DNA of 64,000 nt from contig NZ_JACHFH010000001.1 in assembly GCF_014201835.1 (NCBI RefSeq), forward strand, positions 1 through 64,000, given 5' to 3'. The position numbers and the translations under genes were made by a program. The notes beneath the pieces were generated by a model. That model worked only from the letters and a program-made list of their open reading frames with translations, did no database searches and was not told the origin of the DNA. This DNA comes from Pectinatus brassicae. Lineage in GTDB: Bacteria; Bacillota; Negativicutes; Selenomonadales; Selenomonadaceae. The stretch's first letter is position 1. Every line of letters starts with the position of its first letter. Below are positions 44,068-50,444 of the stretch, piece after piece.

Positions 44068-44943
44068 TTATCTCCCCTTATTTTCATTTACGGGTGATGT
44101 CACATATACACTGAGATCTTTATATTTTGCCGCAAATTTTTGGGCTACATCTTCAGCCTTTTTTTTATCATCACAAACAGCAAAAACACTAGGACCGCTG
44201 CCGGACATAAGTGCTGCCTTGGCCCCATATGTACAAAGCATTTTTTTATACTCCTGCAGCTGAGGATATCTATTTATAGTTACACTTTCCAAGACATTAT
44301 CCAAGGTTTTGCATATTGTATCCAAACTCTTATTGCATAACGCCGCCAGCATGGATTTTGTTGCCGGATGCTGCTCAACTATTTCCGCTTTATAATTATT
44401 ATATACCCAGGCTGTGGAAACACCTATTTTAGGTTTTACTACTACAAAGGCACAATCCGGCATCGCATCAACAGCTGCAATTTTTTCACCGCGGCCTGTT
44501 GCCAGCATTGTCCCCCCCTTTATACAAAAAGGAATATCTGAGCCTAACTGCCCGCCCAGTTCGCATAAATCGTCATCGCTTTTATTTAAAGCAAACAACT
44601 CATTTAAGCCGCGCAGTACCGCTGCTGCGTCAGCACTGCCACCGGCCAGACCGGCAGCTATCGGGATATTTTTTTGCAGGGATATATTTACTCCACAATT
44701 TACATCATATGTTTTTAAAAATAATTGGGCCGCTTTATATATAAGATTATCTTTATCATCGTCGACACCGTCTACTTTACAATCTAGTATTATATCGCAA
44801 CTATCATTTTTTTCAACCATAATTACATCATGCAAATCTATCGCTTGCATAATCATTTCTACTTCATGATAACCATCATCACGTTTACCAAGAATATCCA
44901 GTGTTAAATTTATCTTTCCATTAGCTGTTATTTTCAAAAACAA
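44068..44943 (-). CDS. ispE: 4-diphosphocytidyl-2-C-methyl-D-erythritol kinase
   Basis: GHMP kinase of the MEP pathway for isoprenoid precursors, about 292 residues. The core starts KITANGKINLTLDILGKRDDGYHE, with the phosphate-binding loop PIAAGLAGGSADAAAVLRGL in the middle and GSGPSVFAV near the end. The frame is open 33 codons further upstream without similarity. A TTG with GGAG 4 bases upstream, or a TTG two codons later, fits the conserved N-terminus. Confidence 0.92.
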   Translation of the reverse strand: MFLKITANGKINLTLDILGKRDDGYHEVEMIMQAIDLHDVIMVEKNDSCDIILDCKVDGVDDDKDNLIYKAAQLFLKTYDVNCGVNISLQKNIPIAAGLAGGSADAAAVLRGLNELFALNKSDDDLCELGGQLGSDIPFCIKGGTMLATGRGEKIAAVDAMPDCAFVVVKPKIGVSTAWVYNNYKAEIVEQHPATKSMLAALCNKSLDTICKTLDNVLESVTINRYPQLQEYKKMLCTYGAKAALMSGSGPSVFAVCDDKKKAEDVAQKFAAKYKDLSVYVTSPVNENKGR

Positions 44944-45035
44944 TTCACTCCATTGGGAAATACTTCTATTATATACAAATATAATAAGATTGTAACAATT
45001 TTTTCCGCAAACAGCAATACTTTCTCCCTTTCTTC

Positions 45036-45064
45036 TTGACAATATTAGTTATAAATCGCATAAT
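45036..45064 (+). promoter_or_regulatory. Promoter of the P-type ATPase-like operon
   Basis: Perfect TTGACA (45036-45041), 17-base spacer and CATAAT (45059-45064), followed by an 86-base AT-rich leader. Confidence 0.72.
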
Positions 45065-45150: not shown

Positions 45151-47343
45151 ATGTTACAATATATTTTTCAGCTTTATAACACATCAATTGATTTTAACAG
45201 CAACGATATAAATTTGCTTTTTTCCTCACACTTTGCTATTAAAAATATTAGTTTTGTTCCTGAAAATAACCAAGTTATAATTGTTGCCAAAAAACTTGAC
45301 CCTGATTTTACACTTACTATTTTAAACACTGCCGGCTACGAAGCCGCTTTTATCGAAAAAATTCCACTATTTTTCTCAAAAATAAAAGTTTTTTCCGCTA
45401 TTTTATCTATAATAATATTTATTTTCTGCTTATTACTATATTTTTCGGATAGTGAAAAATTATTTTTGTCAACAAACGTTATGCAGCTATTCCGTACAGA
45501 ATTTATCCCCTATAGTCAATTAACACTTGCCCTTATAACAATGCTGCTAAATTACTACTATTATGCCCATAGTTTTAAATCTTTATTTAAAAAAAGTCTC
45601 TCACCCGATTTACCCATTGCTGTAAGCACCTGCAGTTTATTTTTATTTAGCTGCTACCAATTATTTATGCAGTCCTACGATAAACTTTATTTTATGCCGC
45701 TGATTACTATATTGGTGCTGTCAACAACACTAAGGCTTATCGCCGATATAATAAAAAAAGAATTTTTTCGTACAGCTGAATATCCTATAGGTAATCTGCC
45801 AGCAACGGCATGCCGGCTTGATCTTGATAGCGATGAAGAAAAAACCATTCCCATTGCTGAACTACAAAAGGATGATATTCTTATAATAAAACCCGGCAAT
45901 ATTCTTCCGGCTGACGGTGAAATCTCGTGGGGCAATGCCCAGATAGATGAGTCAATCATTACTGGCGATTCCTCCCTTAAAGCTAAATCAACTAATGACT
46001 TAGTTTATGCTCAGACGAAAAACATCAAGGGTACTTTTCAATACCGTATCACTGCTGCCAATTCCAATACTCTTTTATATAAACTACGACAACTATCTTA
46101 TAATGCATTAATAAATTCGCCAGCTGCCTATCCCCGTATAAACAAGCTTAGTAATATTCTTACTATCCTATCATTATTCGTAGCATGTATTGCTGCTTCC
46201 TATTGGTTTTTTGCCGGCAAATCGTCATCATTTATAATAACAATTTTTGCCGCAGTAACAATCATTATTTGTCCATACAATATTGTTGCAGCCAAGAATT
46301 TATTGTTAAGTGCTGCTATAATAAGATGCGCTCGCCTTGGTATCTTTATTAAAAATATTGGTGCCTTAAGCAATCTTGGTAATATTGATACTCTCATTTT
46401 AGGAAAATCCGGCATTATAACTACCGGTCAATCCAAAGTAATCGCCCTTCATCCAGAGGGTCTATTACCAAAAAGCCTGTTGGCATTAGCCGCTAGTGCC
46501 GAATATGGTCATGAACACCATCTAGCCTCAGCTATAATAAATTCTGCAATAAAAAATAAAGTTCATACTCAGCGTATTTCTTCGTCGCAGTTAATTGCCG
46601 GTAATGGTGTTGAAGCTATTATTAACAGAGAAATTATTCGCGTAGGCAAAGCTGCCTGGCTTAAAGCTGAAGGTATTAATATAAGCGCTGAATTAAAAGA
46701 CAAAGCTTATCAGGCTGCTCGTGATGGTTTCACTCCAATATTTATTTCGCTTGACAAATATTGTCATGGTGTCTTAATAATTGAAGATCCGCTGCGCAAT
46801 GACTTATCGCATGAACTACATAATTTAAATAAAATAAATACTATCCTGTTTACCAGTGATGACAACCATACCGCTAAGGCGCTTGCCAAAAAACTTGGAA
46901 TAAATCAGTTCCGCTCGGAATTATCCTTAACTGATAAAGCCAAAGAAATTGCTTTATTGCATACACGGGGACTCACAATTGCTTTTATCAGTAATAAGGG
47001 CCGTGATACAGATGCGTTTAAAACCTCTGATATTGGCATACTTTTTAATAACAAAAATCCTGATAGTATTGCTATTGATGCCGCTGATATAGTTTGCCTC
47101 AACGATAATTTCAGCAGTCTTTGCCATATTATCACTTTTGCTCGCAAATCAATAAAAAGTATGAAACAAAATATTCTTTTAGCTTTATTAATGAGTATAA
47201 TAGGTGGTATAATTGCTGCTGGCGGTATTTATCACTGGATATCAATAAGTCTTTCACCCATAACCGCAGCTTGTCTTTGTGCCATAATCAATATTTTAAT
47301 TATGGGCAGAACTATATTTACCACATTGATTTTTAATAAATAA
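45151..47343 (+). CDS. P1B-type ATPase homologue with degenerate catalytic motifs (pseudoenzyme)
   Basis: The 730-residue protein has the layout of a heavy-metal P-type ATPase: an HMA-like N-terminal domain without CxxC (1-70), four membrane segments, an A-domain with ESIITGDS (267-274), two segments with CPY at 374-376 instead of CPC, P/N domains and two last segments. The phosphorylation motif DKTGT is GKSGI (418-422), so the acceptor Asp is missing; GDGxNDAPAL is replaced by SNKGRDTDAF (614-623), and the SEHPLA-type motif by HEHHLA. The frame is intact, so it is maintained, but cannot pump by the normal cycle. It leads a three-gene operon. The role is unknown. Confidence 0.85.
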   Translation: MLQYIFQLYNTSIDFNSNDINLLFSSHFAIKNISFVPENNQVIIVAKKLDPDFTLTILNTAGYEAAFIEKIPLFFSKIKVFSAILSIIIFIFCLLLYFSDSEKLFLSTNVMQLFRTEFIPYSQLTLALITMLLNYYYYAHSFKSLFKKSLSPDLPIAVSTCSLFLFSCYQLFMQSYDKLYFMPLITILVLSTTLRLIADIIKKEFFRTAEYPIGNLPATACRLDLDSDEEKTIPIAELQKDDILIIKPGNILPADGEISWGNAQIDESIITGDSSLKAKSTNDLVYAQTKNIKGTFQYRITAANSNTLLYKLRQLSYNALINSPAAYPRINKLSNILTILSLFVACIAASYWFFAGKSSSFIITIFAAVTIIICPYNIVAAKNLLLSAAIIRCARLGIFIKNIGALSNLGNIDTLILGKSGIITTGQSKVIALHPEGLLPKSLLALAASAEYGHEHHLASAIINSAIKNKVHTQRISSSQLIAGNGVEAIINREIIRVGKAAWLKAEGINISAELKDKAYQAARDGFTPIFISLDKYCHGVLIIEDPLRNDLSHELHNLNKINTILFTSDDNHTAKALAKKLGINQFRSELSLTDKAKEIALLHTRGLTIAFISNKGRDTDAFKTSDIGILFNNKNPDSIAIDAADIVCLNDNFSSLCHIITFARKSIKSMKQNILLALLMSIIGGIIAAGGIYHWISISLSPITAACLCAIINILIMGRTIFTTLIFNK

Positions 47344-47366
47344 TTGCTTACAGGGAGGGTAATACT

Positions 47367-47576
47367 ATGCTTAAACTCTATATTGAAAAATCCTTTGATG
47401 AAGATTGTGCTAAATGTATAATTGCCGCACTGGGTGACTTGGAAGGCATGCATAAAATTTATGAAACAAACTTAACAGACAACTATATATCACTAGATTG
47501 TTCCACTGAGGAAAGCATATTATATGATGCCCTCAAAGATGAGGGATTTACTATCAGCAAAATCGAACACTCTTAA
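47367..47576 (+). CDS. Small heavy-metal-associated-like protein with CxxC
   Basis: The 69-residue product has the size and pattern of an HMA copper-chaperone fold: a first strand, then DEDCAKCIIAALGDLEGM with C14 and C17 placed like the metal-binding CxxC, and the remaining strands. The usual GMTC is DEDC here, so metal specificity may differ. It lies 23 bases after the ATPase-like gene with a GGGAGG ribosome site. It probably works with that protein, whose own HMA-like domain has no CxxC. Confidence 0.7.
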   Translation: MLKLYIEKSFDEDCAKCIIAALGDLEGMHKIYETNLTDNYISLDCSTEESILYDALKDEGFTISKIEHS

Positions 47577-47600
47577 AAAAAATTAAAGGATATTGAATCT

Positions 47601-48254
47601 ATGAAAAAAATCTTATTTGTTTTATTACTGCTCTTTTTTATTGTTCCACTAAAAGCTAATGCCGAAATTCGTCAAAGTGAAGTCAACAACACCGTTGCTA
47701 TGGAAAGTGCCTTTACCTACAAGGAACCACTATCTGAAAATAGTCCCGCTCAAACCACTGCCATCAAAACAGCAGATATTTTTTCTATTTATGTAAAATC
47801 AACACGCTTTTATAATCGCAGCAAAACAAACTTCCGTGCCCATATTGAATTAGATATAACTTCCAAGACTGAATTAATTGATTTATTATTTGATAAGGAC
47901 TGCCCACCCCAAATTGAATATACAAAAGATGGGCAAACACATGTTTTACCGTTAAAAAAAGTTTATTATAATGACCAATATTTTATTTCATTCAAACTAA
48001 AAAGCGCTGACCTTGATGCATTGTACACTGCTGATACCGTAAATGTTATTTTCCCTGTAATTACCAATGGCAGTAATGTAGATTATAAAAAAGATAAAAA
48101 TGGCCAGATGCAAAAAATTTATGTAAAACAATCACTGGAAAAAAATTCTACTACAATTGAAAAAAGTTATACAATTCCCCATTCGATAATTGCCGAATGG
48201 CAAAAAGTATTAACGAGTGATTTACAACCTGGCAGTATTACCGATACGTTATAA
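47601..48254 (+). CDS. Secreted hypothetical protein of the P-type ATPase-like operon
   Basis: No family recognised. The 217-residue product starts with a typical signal peptide (MKKILFVLLLLFF, cleavage after KANA) and continues as a single beta-rich domain with one cysteine. It is 24 bases after the HMA-like gene and ends at a strong terminator, so it is the third gene of the operon. It should act outside the inner membrane. Confidence 0.7.
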   Translation: MKKILFVLLLLFFIVPLKANAEIRQSEVNNTVAMESAFTYKEPLSENSPAQTTAIKTADIFSIYVKSTRFYNRSKTNFRAHIELDITSKTELIDLLFDKDCPPQIEYTKDGQTHVLPLKKVYYNDQYFISFKLKSADLDALYTADTVNVIFPVITNGSNVDYKKDKNGQMQKIYVKQSLEKNSTTIEKSYTIPHSIIAEWQKVLTSDLQPGSITDTL

Positions 48255-48257
48255 TAT

Positions 48258-48300
48258 GTAAAAAACCAGCTTATGCTAAAAGCACAAGCTGGTTTTTTAC
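48258..48300. terminator. Bidirectional terminator
   Basis: GTAAAAAACCAGCTT (48258-48272) pairs exactly with AAGCTGGTTTTTTAC (48286-48300). It includes the stop codon of the converging dhaM-like gene. Confidence 0.9.
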
Positions 48301-48689
48301 ATATTTTTCTTTGACAAATACTTTACTTGTTCAGCAACCTTTAACACTTTTTCCACCGAACTGCCTAACGACGCCTCTACTGTTGCCACAATAGTTCCTT
48401 CTAAAATAGGTGCATCAGCAATAAATATTTTAGCATTATTTATATTATCTTTTAACTTTATCATTTCGGCACAAATAATAGCACTATTTAAATCAACAAA
48501 TATAACAACACCATCTTTTTTCTCTAATCCTTCAATAGTTTCTTCAACCATATCCAAATCTATTCCTAATTTTCCCTTATCACCGCCAACAGCTTCAATT
48601 ACCTGTCCGGGAATTGCCATTTCCTTAGCAATATCTCTTATTCCTTCAGCTGCTTTTAAGCTATGTGATATAATTACTATTTCTACCAT
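48297..48689 (-). CDS. dhaM: DhaM-like PTS phosphocarrier (EIIA-mannose fold)
   Basis: A 130-residue single-domain protein of the mannose EIIA fold that in Dha systems passes phosphate from HPr to DhaL-ADP for dihydroxyacetone phosphorylation. The active histidine is H9 in IISHSLKAAEGI, and FVDLNSA and ILEGTIVA match the family. No dhaK or dhaL is next to it, so the partner must be elsewhere or the protein is regulatory. Confidence 0.8.
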   Translation of the reverse strand: MVEIVIISHSLKAAEGIRDIAKEMAIPGQVIEAVGGDKGKLGIDLDMVEETIEGLEKKDGVVIFVDLNSAIICAEMIKLKDNINNAKIFIADAPILEGTIVATVEASLGSSVEKVLKVAEQVKYLSKKNM

Positions 48690-48910: not shown

Positions 48911-49138
48911 TTATAACATTTGTTTTATTTCATCTTTTGATATGACTTTGCCCGCAGCTCTTACCTTGCCATCTATAACTAATGCCGGAGTGGTCATAAC
49001 ACCATACTGCATTATTTGCTTTATATCTTCTACTTTGTTTATCTGAGCTTCTATTCCCACTTCCTGTACGGCCTGCTCAGCCGCCATATATAAATCCTTG
49101 CATTTTGCACAACCCATACCTAAAATCTCAATTTTCAT
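48911..49138 (-). CDS. Small thioredoxin-family protein (redox-active disulfide protein 2 type)
   Basis: A 75-residue thioredoxin-like fold with active-site CAKC (C10, C13) in GMGCAKCKDL and the cis-proline TTPALVIDG. These mini-thioredoxins often lie in operons with ArsR and DUF318 permeases. Start: the ATG giving MKIEILG, with AAAGGA about 9 bases upstream. It is third in permease-arsR-thioredoxin. Confidence 0.85.
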   Translation of the reverse strand: MKIEILGMGCAKCKDLYMAAEQAVQEVGIEAQINKVEDIKQIMQYGVMTTPALVIDGKVRAAGKVISKDEIKQML

Positions 49139-49163
49139 TATAAACAATCCTTTCTTTTCTATG

Positions 49164-49487
49164 TTATTGTAAAAATTTCAACAAATTATGACTGGCGTTT
49201 ATCTGCTTACTCAATATCATTTCAACAATCCCCAGAAGCTCCAATACCTGTGGATAGGCAATCCAATAAATGACCCGCTGTCCATCCTTGCGTGAGTCGA
49301 TAATGCCCTGTTTTTTTAGCATTCCTAAATGCTGTGATAGGTTGGACTGCTCTATATCAATTTTATCTATCATCTCACAAACGCATAACTCGCCGCCTTT
49401 TAGCAGATTTAATATTTTTATTCGCACCGGGTGTCCCAGTGTCTTAAAAAAATCTGCTGACAATTTAAATACGATATCCTCAGCCAT
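49164..49487 (-). CDS. ArsR/SmtB family metalloregulator
   Basis: Winged-helix repressor of 107 residues. The HTH contains QSNLSQHLGMLKKQGI, and ELCVCEM at the alpha-3 position gives the paired cysteines that bind arsenic or antimony (type CVC) in ArsR. It should repress its own operon. It lies between the permease and the thioredoxin-like gene. Confidence 0.9.
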   Translation of the reverse strand: MAEDIVFKLSADFFKTLGHPVRIKILNLLKGGELCVCEMIDKIDIEQSNLSQHLGMLKKQGIIDSRKDGQRVIYWIAYPQVLELLGIVEMILSKQINASHNLLKFLQ

Positions 49488-49496
49488 AAGAGCCTC

Positions 49497-50444
49497 CTAC
49501 ATTAAAAAATTAAATAAATATCCTGTAAACATAATGCTTATAAATAATATTACCACAAAAATGACTAACAATGGTGTTTTTAAAACATTGCGCAGAATAA
49601 TCATTTCAGGAAAACTCAATGCTGTCACCGCCATCATAAATGCCAGTGCCGTTCCCAAACTCAGACCTTTTTGAATAAGCACTGTAATAATAGGCATTAT
49701 ACCCGCGGCATTGGAATATAAAGGCACTCCTATTAATACTGCTGCGGGTACTGCTAAAATACTGTCACGCCCAGCATACTGAACTAATAAATCTTCTGGA
49801 GCATAGCCATGGATAAAACCACCAATGGCAATTGCTATTATTACATAAAGCCCTACCTTTTTTAATATTTGTCTAGTATAATTTGCAGCATACTCCATGC
49901 GTTCCCTTAAGGATTGATCAGCAATTTCATTTTCTCCCAGTTTCATTTCATAAACATAGTCCTGTACAAATCTTTCCAGTCTTAGTCGTCCCATTATAAT
50001 ACCAGCAATTATGGCAATCACTAACCCTGATATAATATATATCAACATGATTTTCCATCCCAACAAGCCCCAGAGCATTATTACGGCTACTTCATTTACC
50101 ATGGGGGACGCTATCAAAAAAGAAAATGTAATCCCAAGCGGTACTCCCGACTCAATAAAGCCAATAAAAACCGGTACAGCCGAACATGAACAAAACGGTG
50201 TTACTATCCCTAATAAAGCTGCCGCTATATTGCCAAAAAACTGCCGTCTATGGCTTAAAAGTTTTTTAGTTCGTTCCGCTGGAAAATATGAGCGCAATAT
50301 TGATACAAAAAAAATAATAATAGACAGCATTAAAAATATTTTTATACTATCATAAATAAAAAAATTTAAAGCTGCTCCCAACATACTTTGGGCTGATAAT
50401 CCTAATAAATCATATACCAGCGTATCCGCTAATGTCTGTAACAT
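49497..50444 (-). CDS. ArsP/DUF318 family permease
   Basis: Integral membrane protein of 315 residues with about eight membrane segments. The family motif TPFCSCSAVPVFIGFIESGVP has paired cysteines, and a second repeat is SNAAGIMPI. ArsP members export trivalent organoarsenicals; the true substrate here is not proven. It is the first gene of an operon with ArsR and a thioredoxin. The AT-rich promoter region upstream has ATATAACTATATGATAATAT, resembling an ArsR-type operator. Confidence 0.85.
   Translation of the reverse strand: MLQTLADTLVYDLLGLSAQSMLGAALNFFIYDSIKIFLMLSIIIFFVSILRSYFPAERTKKLLSHRRQFFGNIAAALLGIVTPFCSCSAVPVFIGFIESGVPLGITFSFLIASPMVNEVAVIMLWGLLGWKIMLIYIISGLVIAIIAGIIMGRLRLERFVQDYVYEMKLGENEIADQSLRERMEYAANYTRQILKKVGLYVIIAIAIGGFIHGYAPEDLLVQYAGRDSILAVPAAVLIGVPLYSNAAGIMPIITVLIQKGLSLGTALAFMMAVTALSFPEMIILRNVLKTPLLVIFVVILFISIMFTGYLFNFLM

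Follow-up and report, generated by a model that had tools for sequence, protein, structure and literature searches.

Catalytically dead CopA-lineage ATPases of Selenomonadaceae conserve their nucleotide-binding domain

A single phosphorylated aspartate defines the P-type ATPases, which are textbook enzymes. In pseudoenzymes generally, catalytic residues have been lost while the fold and the ligand pocket are retained under purifying selection. To our knowledge, no family-wide pseudoenzyme has been described among the P-type ATPases. A search of a library of open-access papers for pseudo-, inactive, or degenerate P-type ATPases gave no match to the proteins described here, and the parts of a 2023 review of the superfamily reached by a term search mention no such pseudo-P-type ATPase. 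The isolated nucleotide-binding (N) domain of ATP7B binds ATP on its own, and its residues G1099, G1101, and G1149 make contacts with ATP by NMR (PMC3203118). The mapping of ATP7B residues onto the proteins described below is our own assignment and not that of the cited study.

The window analyzed here is a stretch of 64,000 nucleotides from Pectinatus brassicae (contig NZ_JACHFH010000001.1, positions 1 to 64,000). It contains a three-gene operon whose first gene encodes a catalytically dead relative of the copper pump CopA. The features of the locus are given in window positions.

44068-45042, minus strand: ispE, followed by gntR, glmU, and prs, the divergent neighbors that mark the locus across the family (neighborhood comparison).
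45036-45064, plus strand: promoter-like TTGACA-17-CATAAT ahead of the operon, identified by consensus match alone (11/12).
45151-47343, plus strand: P1B-type (CopA-lineage) ATPase, catalytically dead, 730 aa (family profile matches, AlphaFold2 model).
45151-45366, plus strand: N-terminal HMA-like beta-alpha-beta-beta-alpha-beta domain without CxxC, residues 1-72 (model secondary structure; the CxxC columns hold Ile and Asn).
45805-46056, plus strand: actuator (A) domain, residues 219-302, with TGES changed to TGDS (profile match, alignment, model).
46270-46278, plus strand: CPY where the transmembrane metal motif CPC is expected, residues 374-376 (sequence, alignment).
46402-46416, plus strand: GKSGI in place of DKTGT, residues 418-422, the phosphate-acceptor Asp gone (sequence, alignment).
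46447-46761, plus strand: N domain, residues 433-537, retaining E451, H456, G484, G486, and G499; no other part of the dead family is as conserved.
46510-46527, plus strand: HEHHLA in place of SEHPLA, residues 454-459 (sequence, alignment).
46990-47007, plus strand: SNKGRD in place of GDGxND, residues 614-619, the Mg2+/hinge motif gone (sequence, alignment).
47367-47576, plus strand: CopZ-like protein, 69 aa, with a displaced Cys pair (homologous to CopZ of the intact csoR-copA-copZ operons L036 and L039).
47601-48254, plus strand: secreted protein, 217 aa, with a signal peptide, beta-rich, of no known family (ORF, profile searches, model).
48258-48299, plus strand: inverted repeat AAAAAACCAGCTT...AAGCTGGTTTTTT resembling a terminator, located between the operon and a convergent EIIA gene (read by eye; absent from a scan with a loop limit of 8).

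The ATPase has kept the architecture of a copper pump and lost its working residues. ORF 1 (45151-47343) starts with ATG and encodes 730 aa with zero internal stops. It is followed on the plus strand by ORFs 2 and 3, with gaps of 23 and 24 bp, a spacing that suggests co-transcription of the three genes in the window's genus. The protein matches the E1-E2_ATPase profile at 1.6e-33, and it scores 307 bits against TIGR01525 and 249.8 bits against TIGR01511, under the curated cut-offs of 346.25 and 397. Its AlphaFold2 model has a mean pLDDT of 82, and the closest solved structures are CopAs, with 7r0g near the best match (TM 0.77/0.85). By descent and overall fold the protein belongs to the P1B-type ATPases. 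It fails as a functional CopA on the DKTGT Asp, GDGxND, the TGE of the A domain, the two TIGR scores, and the metal ligands: besides CPC, the Tyr-Asn pair of M5, the Met-Ser-x-Ser-Ser site of M6, and the CxxC of the N-terminal metal-binding domain are gone.

The nucleotide pocket has fared differently. A P1B-type N domain contacts nucleotide through a Glu, the His of the HP motif, GxG, and the Gly of VxVG, and all of these occur in the window ATPase as E451, H456, G484 with G486, and G499. Judged from these residues, its nucleotide pocket appears to be retained. A preliminary description of this DNA had called the protein a dead ATPase homolog that keeps the domain layout and a long intact frame. 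Its motif readings (GKSGI, SNKGRD, CPY, HEHHLA) are all correct, and the open frame of 730 aa, the CopA-like domain order, and the predicted fold bear it out. It went too far in counting HEHHLA with the lost sites. The Asp, GDGxND, and CPC are indeed gone, but HEHHLA retains the ATP-contacting H456, and the pocket is not lost. The motif losses are not due to chance, since the pattern is conserved in orthologs at the equivalent locus across Selenomonadaceae.

The dead ATPase of the window belongs to a family-wide group and is no isolated oddity. A profile search covered 189 Selenomonadaceae genomes, and about 60 loci were retrieved. Dead orthologs occur in 22 of the 30 sampled genera; 20 of these have complete proteins (57 in all), and two have partial or split copies only. 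The carriers include gut, oral, and environmental bacteria. It had been proposed that the substitutions be checked for conservation in homologs, and they hold up well: the catalytic Asp is absent from 56 of the 57 complete proteins (its position is occupied by G, S, N, A, P, C, or another residue), CPC is intact in none of the 57, and no dead relative has a full GDGxND motif. The M5 and M6 ligand columns are degraded as well. In most genera the protein is shorter (362-485 aa) and starts just before M3, the metal-binding domain, first helices, and A-domain having been deleted. Nine of the best matches from outside Selenomonadaceae were checked for dead forms, and all nine are intact CopAs.

There are a few irregular cases. 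The only member of the dead clade with an acceptor Asp (L168:3844-5787) has it in the sequence DRSGT, and the A-domain and GDGxND are absent there. In G032 a stop splits the dead ATPase into ORFs of 415 and 166 aa (L150:4127-5887), possibly by true decay or by an assembly error. The dead ATPase was not found in g7, the sister of the window's genus. A CsoR/RcnR-like regulator with a His-rich N-terminus lies there immediately upstream of ispE and is co-directional with it (L171:974-1303, L172:2539-2889).

The locus originally encoded a copper efflux system. The position divergent from ispE is shared in most genera, and in G018 (L036) and G027 (L039) it is occupied by csoR-copA-copZ with all motifs of CopA intact; in L039 the order continues as csoR-copA-copZ-cydABDC. 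Intact CopAs of the same lineage are also found in G012, G159, and G026 (the G026 copy runs off its contig). Four genera in all retain an intact CopA of this lineage. The ancestral arrangement is csoR-copA-copZ, divergent from ispE. In the gene trees, all dead sequences form a single clade inside the intact locus-type CopAs (bootstrap 100, 401 columns). The N domain alone recovers the dead clade with support of 89/80 (bootstrap 89), and an AU test disfavors placing the window's genus outside it (p 0.012). A species tree from RpoB and SecA interleaves intact and dead genera. Long dead branches could pull the dead sequences together, so that the support values overstate the reliability of the gene tree. 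One old loss with paralog sorting or transfer and parallel losses are both possible.

One working copper pump of this class seems to be retained in most genomes, because the dead copy accompanies an 855-aa CopA and genomes with the intact locus (G012, G159, G018, G026, G027, G093) show no second CopA-class match in a profile search. In the window's genome, the normal copper ATPase that had been suggested as a thing to look for is present as a full 855-aa CopA located elsewhere, beside csoR (L031).

The dead genes are under purifying selection. Whole-gene dN/dS in close pairs across the family lies at 0.06-0.20, and ispE gives similar values in those pairs; in the window's genus dS is saturated, and only frame maintenance and operon conservation are informative there. 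These values are far below 1, so there is no simple decay across the family. With the 57 open frames in 20 genera, they agree with the earlier suggestion of a maintained gene with a new role. The preliminary description had taken an intact DKTGT in the same operon of close relatives as a sign of simple decay. An intact motif does occur at this locus in two other genera (L036, L039) and never inside the window's genus. Considered together with the low dN/dS, the intact copies therefore represent the ancestor rather than a stage of decay.

The constraint map is inverted: working CopAs are least conserved in the N domain, and the dead set is most conserved there. Mean pairwise identity in the dead proteins, compared with the working 855-aa CopAs of the same family, is 0.23 vs 0.76 in M3-M4, 0.25 vs 0.81 in M5-M6, and 0.31-0.32 vs 0.66-0.74 in the P domain, while in the N domain it is 0.46 vs 0.43. 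In close dead pairs, mean dN is 0.178 for the transmembrane regions, 0.117 for P, and 0.052 for N. Within genus g8, three pairs have an N-domain dN of 0.000-0.006 at dS 0.59-1.05. For the pair L144/L145 the N-domain dN is 0.000 at dS 0.59. Intact pairs do not have the pattern of the dead set, and it is reversed in the pair L036/L038 (dN/dS 0.030 in the transmembrane regions and 0.192 in N). The nucleotide contacts are retained in most of the 57 dead proteins (Glu in 53, His in 53, the VxVG Gly in all). The second Gly of GxG is likewise present in all 57, and the first in 43.

The best reading of these data is that the copA gene of a csoR-copA-copZ copper-efflux operon beside ispE came to encode a pseudoenzyme in most of the family. 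Phosphoryl transfer is abolished by loss of the acceptor Asp and the GDGxND Mg2+ site, and metal transport by loss of CPC, M5 YN, M6 MxSS, and usually the A-domain. Both activities are excluded because of these residue losses, given the established P-type mechanism, and copper export in cells with the dead protein would be carried out by the separate 855-aa CopA. Selection still preserves the N domain, including the residues that contact nucleotide, and M3-M4 plus M5-M6 at the minimum anchor it in the membrane. The dead protein may bind ATP or ADP reversibly without hydrolysis, and nucleotide occupancy may determine how the cytosolic head is presented to a membrane partner, giving a nucleotide-gated adaptor or sensor. 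Because the constraint is inverted, a membrane-tethered, non-hydrolyzing, non-transporting nucleotide-binding adaptor or sensor is the simplest reading, and on sequence grounds we hold it to be somewhat probable. Its partner and regulatory output are conjectural. A narrower version, in which the pump has turned into a dedicated adenine-nucleotide sensor, with N reading ATP/ADP and the degenerate P domain and helices only anchoring and relaying, without ion movement, is tentative and falls short of an even chance.

Several observations weigh against the adaptor or sensor. The first Gly of GxG is replaced by Ser, His, or Asn in 14 of the 57 proteins, and the residue at the position of ATP7B N1150 differs from Asn in most of the dead set and also in the intact L036. 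No partner is conserved family-wide: CopZ and the secreted protein accompany the dead gene in the window's genus only, and adjacency to cydABDC is limited to about eight genera. Also, constraint on the N domain would look alike if the domain were purely a protein-protein interface.

A pure docking domain is the main rival to the nucleotide-binding reading. The protein would be a membrane scaffold whose N domain docks a partner in the cytosol, with the working CopA or a component of the envelope or of respiration as conceivable candidates. Constraint on the N domain equals or exceeds that in working pumps, the domain is anchored in helices whose sequence drifts almost freely, and the whole domain of 105 residues is constrained rather than the pocket alone, all of which suits an interface. 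However, the invariant or nearly invariant residues of the 57 sequences include E451, H456, G486, and G499, which pure docking would not specially protect. The scaffold is a rather unlikely alternative.

The neighborhood of some dead genes hints at respiration. In 26 dead loci from eight genera, cydA lies downstream in the same direction, mostly at 4-330 bp (up to about 640), followed by cydB and cydDC; examples of a dead ATPase gene directly upstream of cydA-cydB-cydDC are L041, L042, L043, L046, and L138. The protein could then be a dedicated factor of the cydABDC operon for biogenesis or regulation of cytochrome bd oxidase. The intact locus L039 has the same genes after copZ, and csoR-copA-copZ-cydABDC seems to be the ancestral order, so that the adjacency is explained by shared ancestry of gene order. 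The dead gene also persists in G009, G016, G024, and G194 (98-100% completeness), where no cydA match was found, and cydA is elsewhere in the genome in the window's genus and others. A bd oxidase factor is improbable.

The genes for the dead ATPase, CopZ-like protein, and secreted protein occur in the same order, divergent from ispE-gntR-glmU-prs, in all five genomes of the genus. Identities to the window's proteins within the genus are 34-40% for the ATPases, 49-57% for the CopZ-like proteins, and 55-58% for the secreted proteins. All five ATPases lack the acceptor Asp (G or A is found there), and two have lost the N-terminal HMA-like domain. Co-occurrence of the three genes, which had been proposed as a check, holds for the genus and does not extend to most other genera. 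The small partner had been described as a CxxC HMA-like protein. It is HMA-like and a homolog of CopZ, but its CxxC is not the CopZ site: the alignment puts an Asp where CopZ has its first Cys, with the second Cys in place and an extra Cys three residues downstream. It therefore lacks the loop 1 CxxC of a CopZ chaperone, and it scores 14 bits against NF047957 (cut-off 85). Both canonical Cys are present in one of the five genus members, and another member has neither.

The secreted protein belongs to no known family, as had been said. Its AlphaFold2 model, built with five sequences, has a pLDDT of 73. The best match in a PDB structure search (E 0.023, TM 0.24) is not a confident relative, and a profile search of PDB sequences gave no match. 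Homologs are present in the five genus genomes, in g7, and weakly in other families. Those of g7 (L206:5688-6347, L207:5525-6166) have a HAD phosphatase gene as neighbor and rRNA-like sequence in the vicinity, and no ATPase gene lies close by. An obligate three-protein machine is ruled out family-wide, as g7 has the secreted protein far from any ATPase and no dead ATPase was detected there; in most genera, in turn, the dead ATPase has neither CopZ nor the secreted protein with it. The degenerating CopZ-like protein and the secreted protein are candidate partners in the window's genus only. Two neighboring elements were also observed. A stand-alone PTS EIIA-man protein of 130 aa, perhaps DhaM-like (48297-48689, minus strand), is convergent with the operon and conserved beside it in the genus. 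An ArsR-family regulator, an ArsP_1-type permease, and a small CxxC thioredoxin (Thioredoxin_3) form a cluster (48911-50444, minus strand) resembling known permease sets for metalloid or redox functions.

The preliminary description had proposed metal sensing or a channel-like partner, and a metal scavenger may be added to these. Descent from a copper operon, the CopZ-like neighbor, and scattered Cys and His residues of the window's ATPase speak for such a role. The idea is not sustained by the family, in which the Cu-coordinating residues of the pump (CPC, M5 YN, M6 MxSS, and the metal-binding domain CxxC) have been lost and the CopZ-like partner is losing its Cys, with both present in only one of five genus members. 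Among the columns conserved across the 57 sequences there is no substitute Cys/His site. Metal sensing is disfavored because no ligand set is conserved, and all three metal-related roles are very unlikely. Slow decay of a redundant copA, a pseudogene in progress, could draw on the second CopA in the family, the lack of a dead ATPase gene beside ispE in G010, G013, and G025, and the stop in L150, yet for the family as a whole it is ruled out by dN/dS and the intact frames, with N-domain dN near zero in several pairs and L150 as the single exception, and it is the least credible reading.

Returning to the nucleotide-binding adaptor or sensor, the dead family suggests that a P-type pump can be split into modules. 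A lineage that has discarded the Asp, the metal site, and often the A-domain keeps an N domain at least as constrained as in pumps, which implies that the N domain of a P-type ATPase can be selected on its own. The family is a natural experiment on the role of this domain apart from the catalytic cycle. It is also a warning for annotation, since the dead proteins score as heavy-metal ATPases (for example with TIGR01494) and yet cannot pump. If the proposed function is true, we know of no earlier pseudo-pump family among P-type ATPases that is conserved throughout a family of bacteria, and this would be the first.

The window protein resembles the CopA-type Cu(I) P1B-1 ATPases (TIGR01511/TIGR01525; 7r0g, 3rfu) in domain order, predicted fold, N-domain sequence, and descent from csoR-copA-copZ. 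Unlike them, the dead proteins have no acceptor Asp, GDGxND, CPC, or M5/M6 ligands and score below both TIGR cut-offs, and most members are without the A-domain and first membrane helices. The 69-aa protein of the window is similar to the CopZ chaperones (NF047957 and relatives) and homologous to the CopZ of L036 and L039, but the first Cys of its CxxC is lost. Like the ATP7B N domain (PMC3203118), the dead family retains Gly contacts at equivalent positions; unlike that domain in isolation, its N domain is natively tethered to membrane helices and is conserved above every other part of the protein. As in pseudoenzymes generally, catalysis has been lost while the fold and pocket are retained under purifying selection, and the dead family is a pseudoenzyme from a superfamily for which we know of no other family-wide example.
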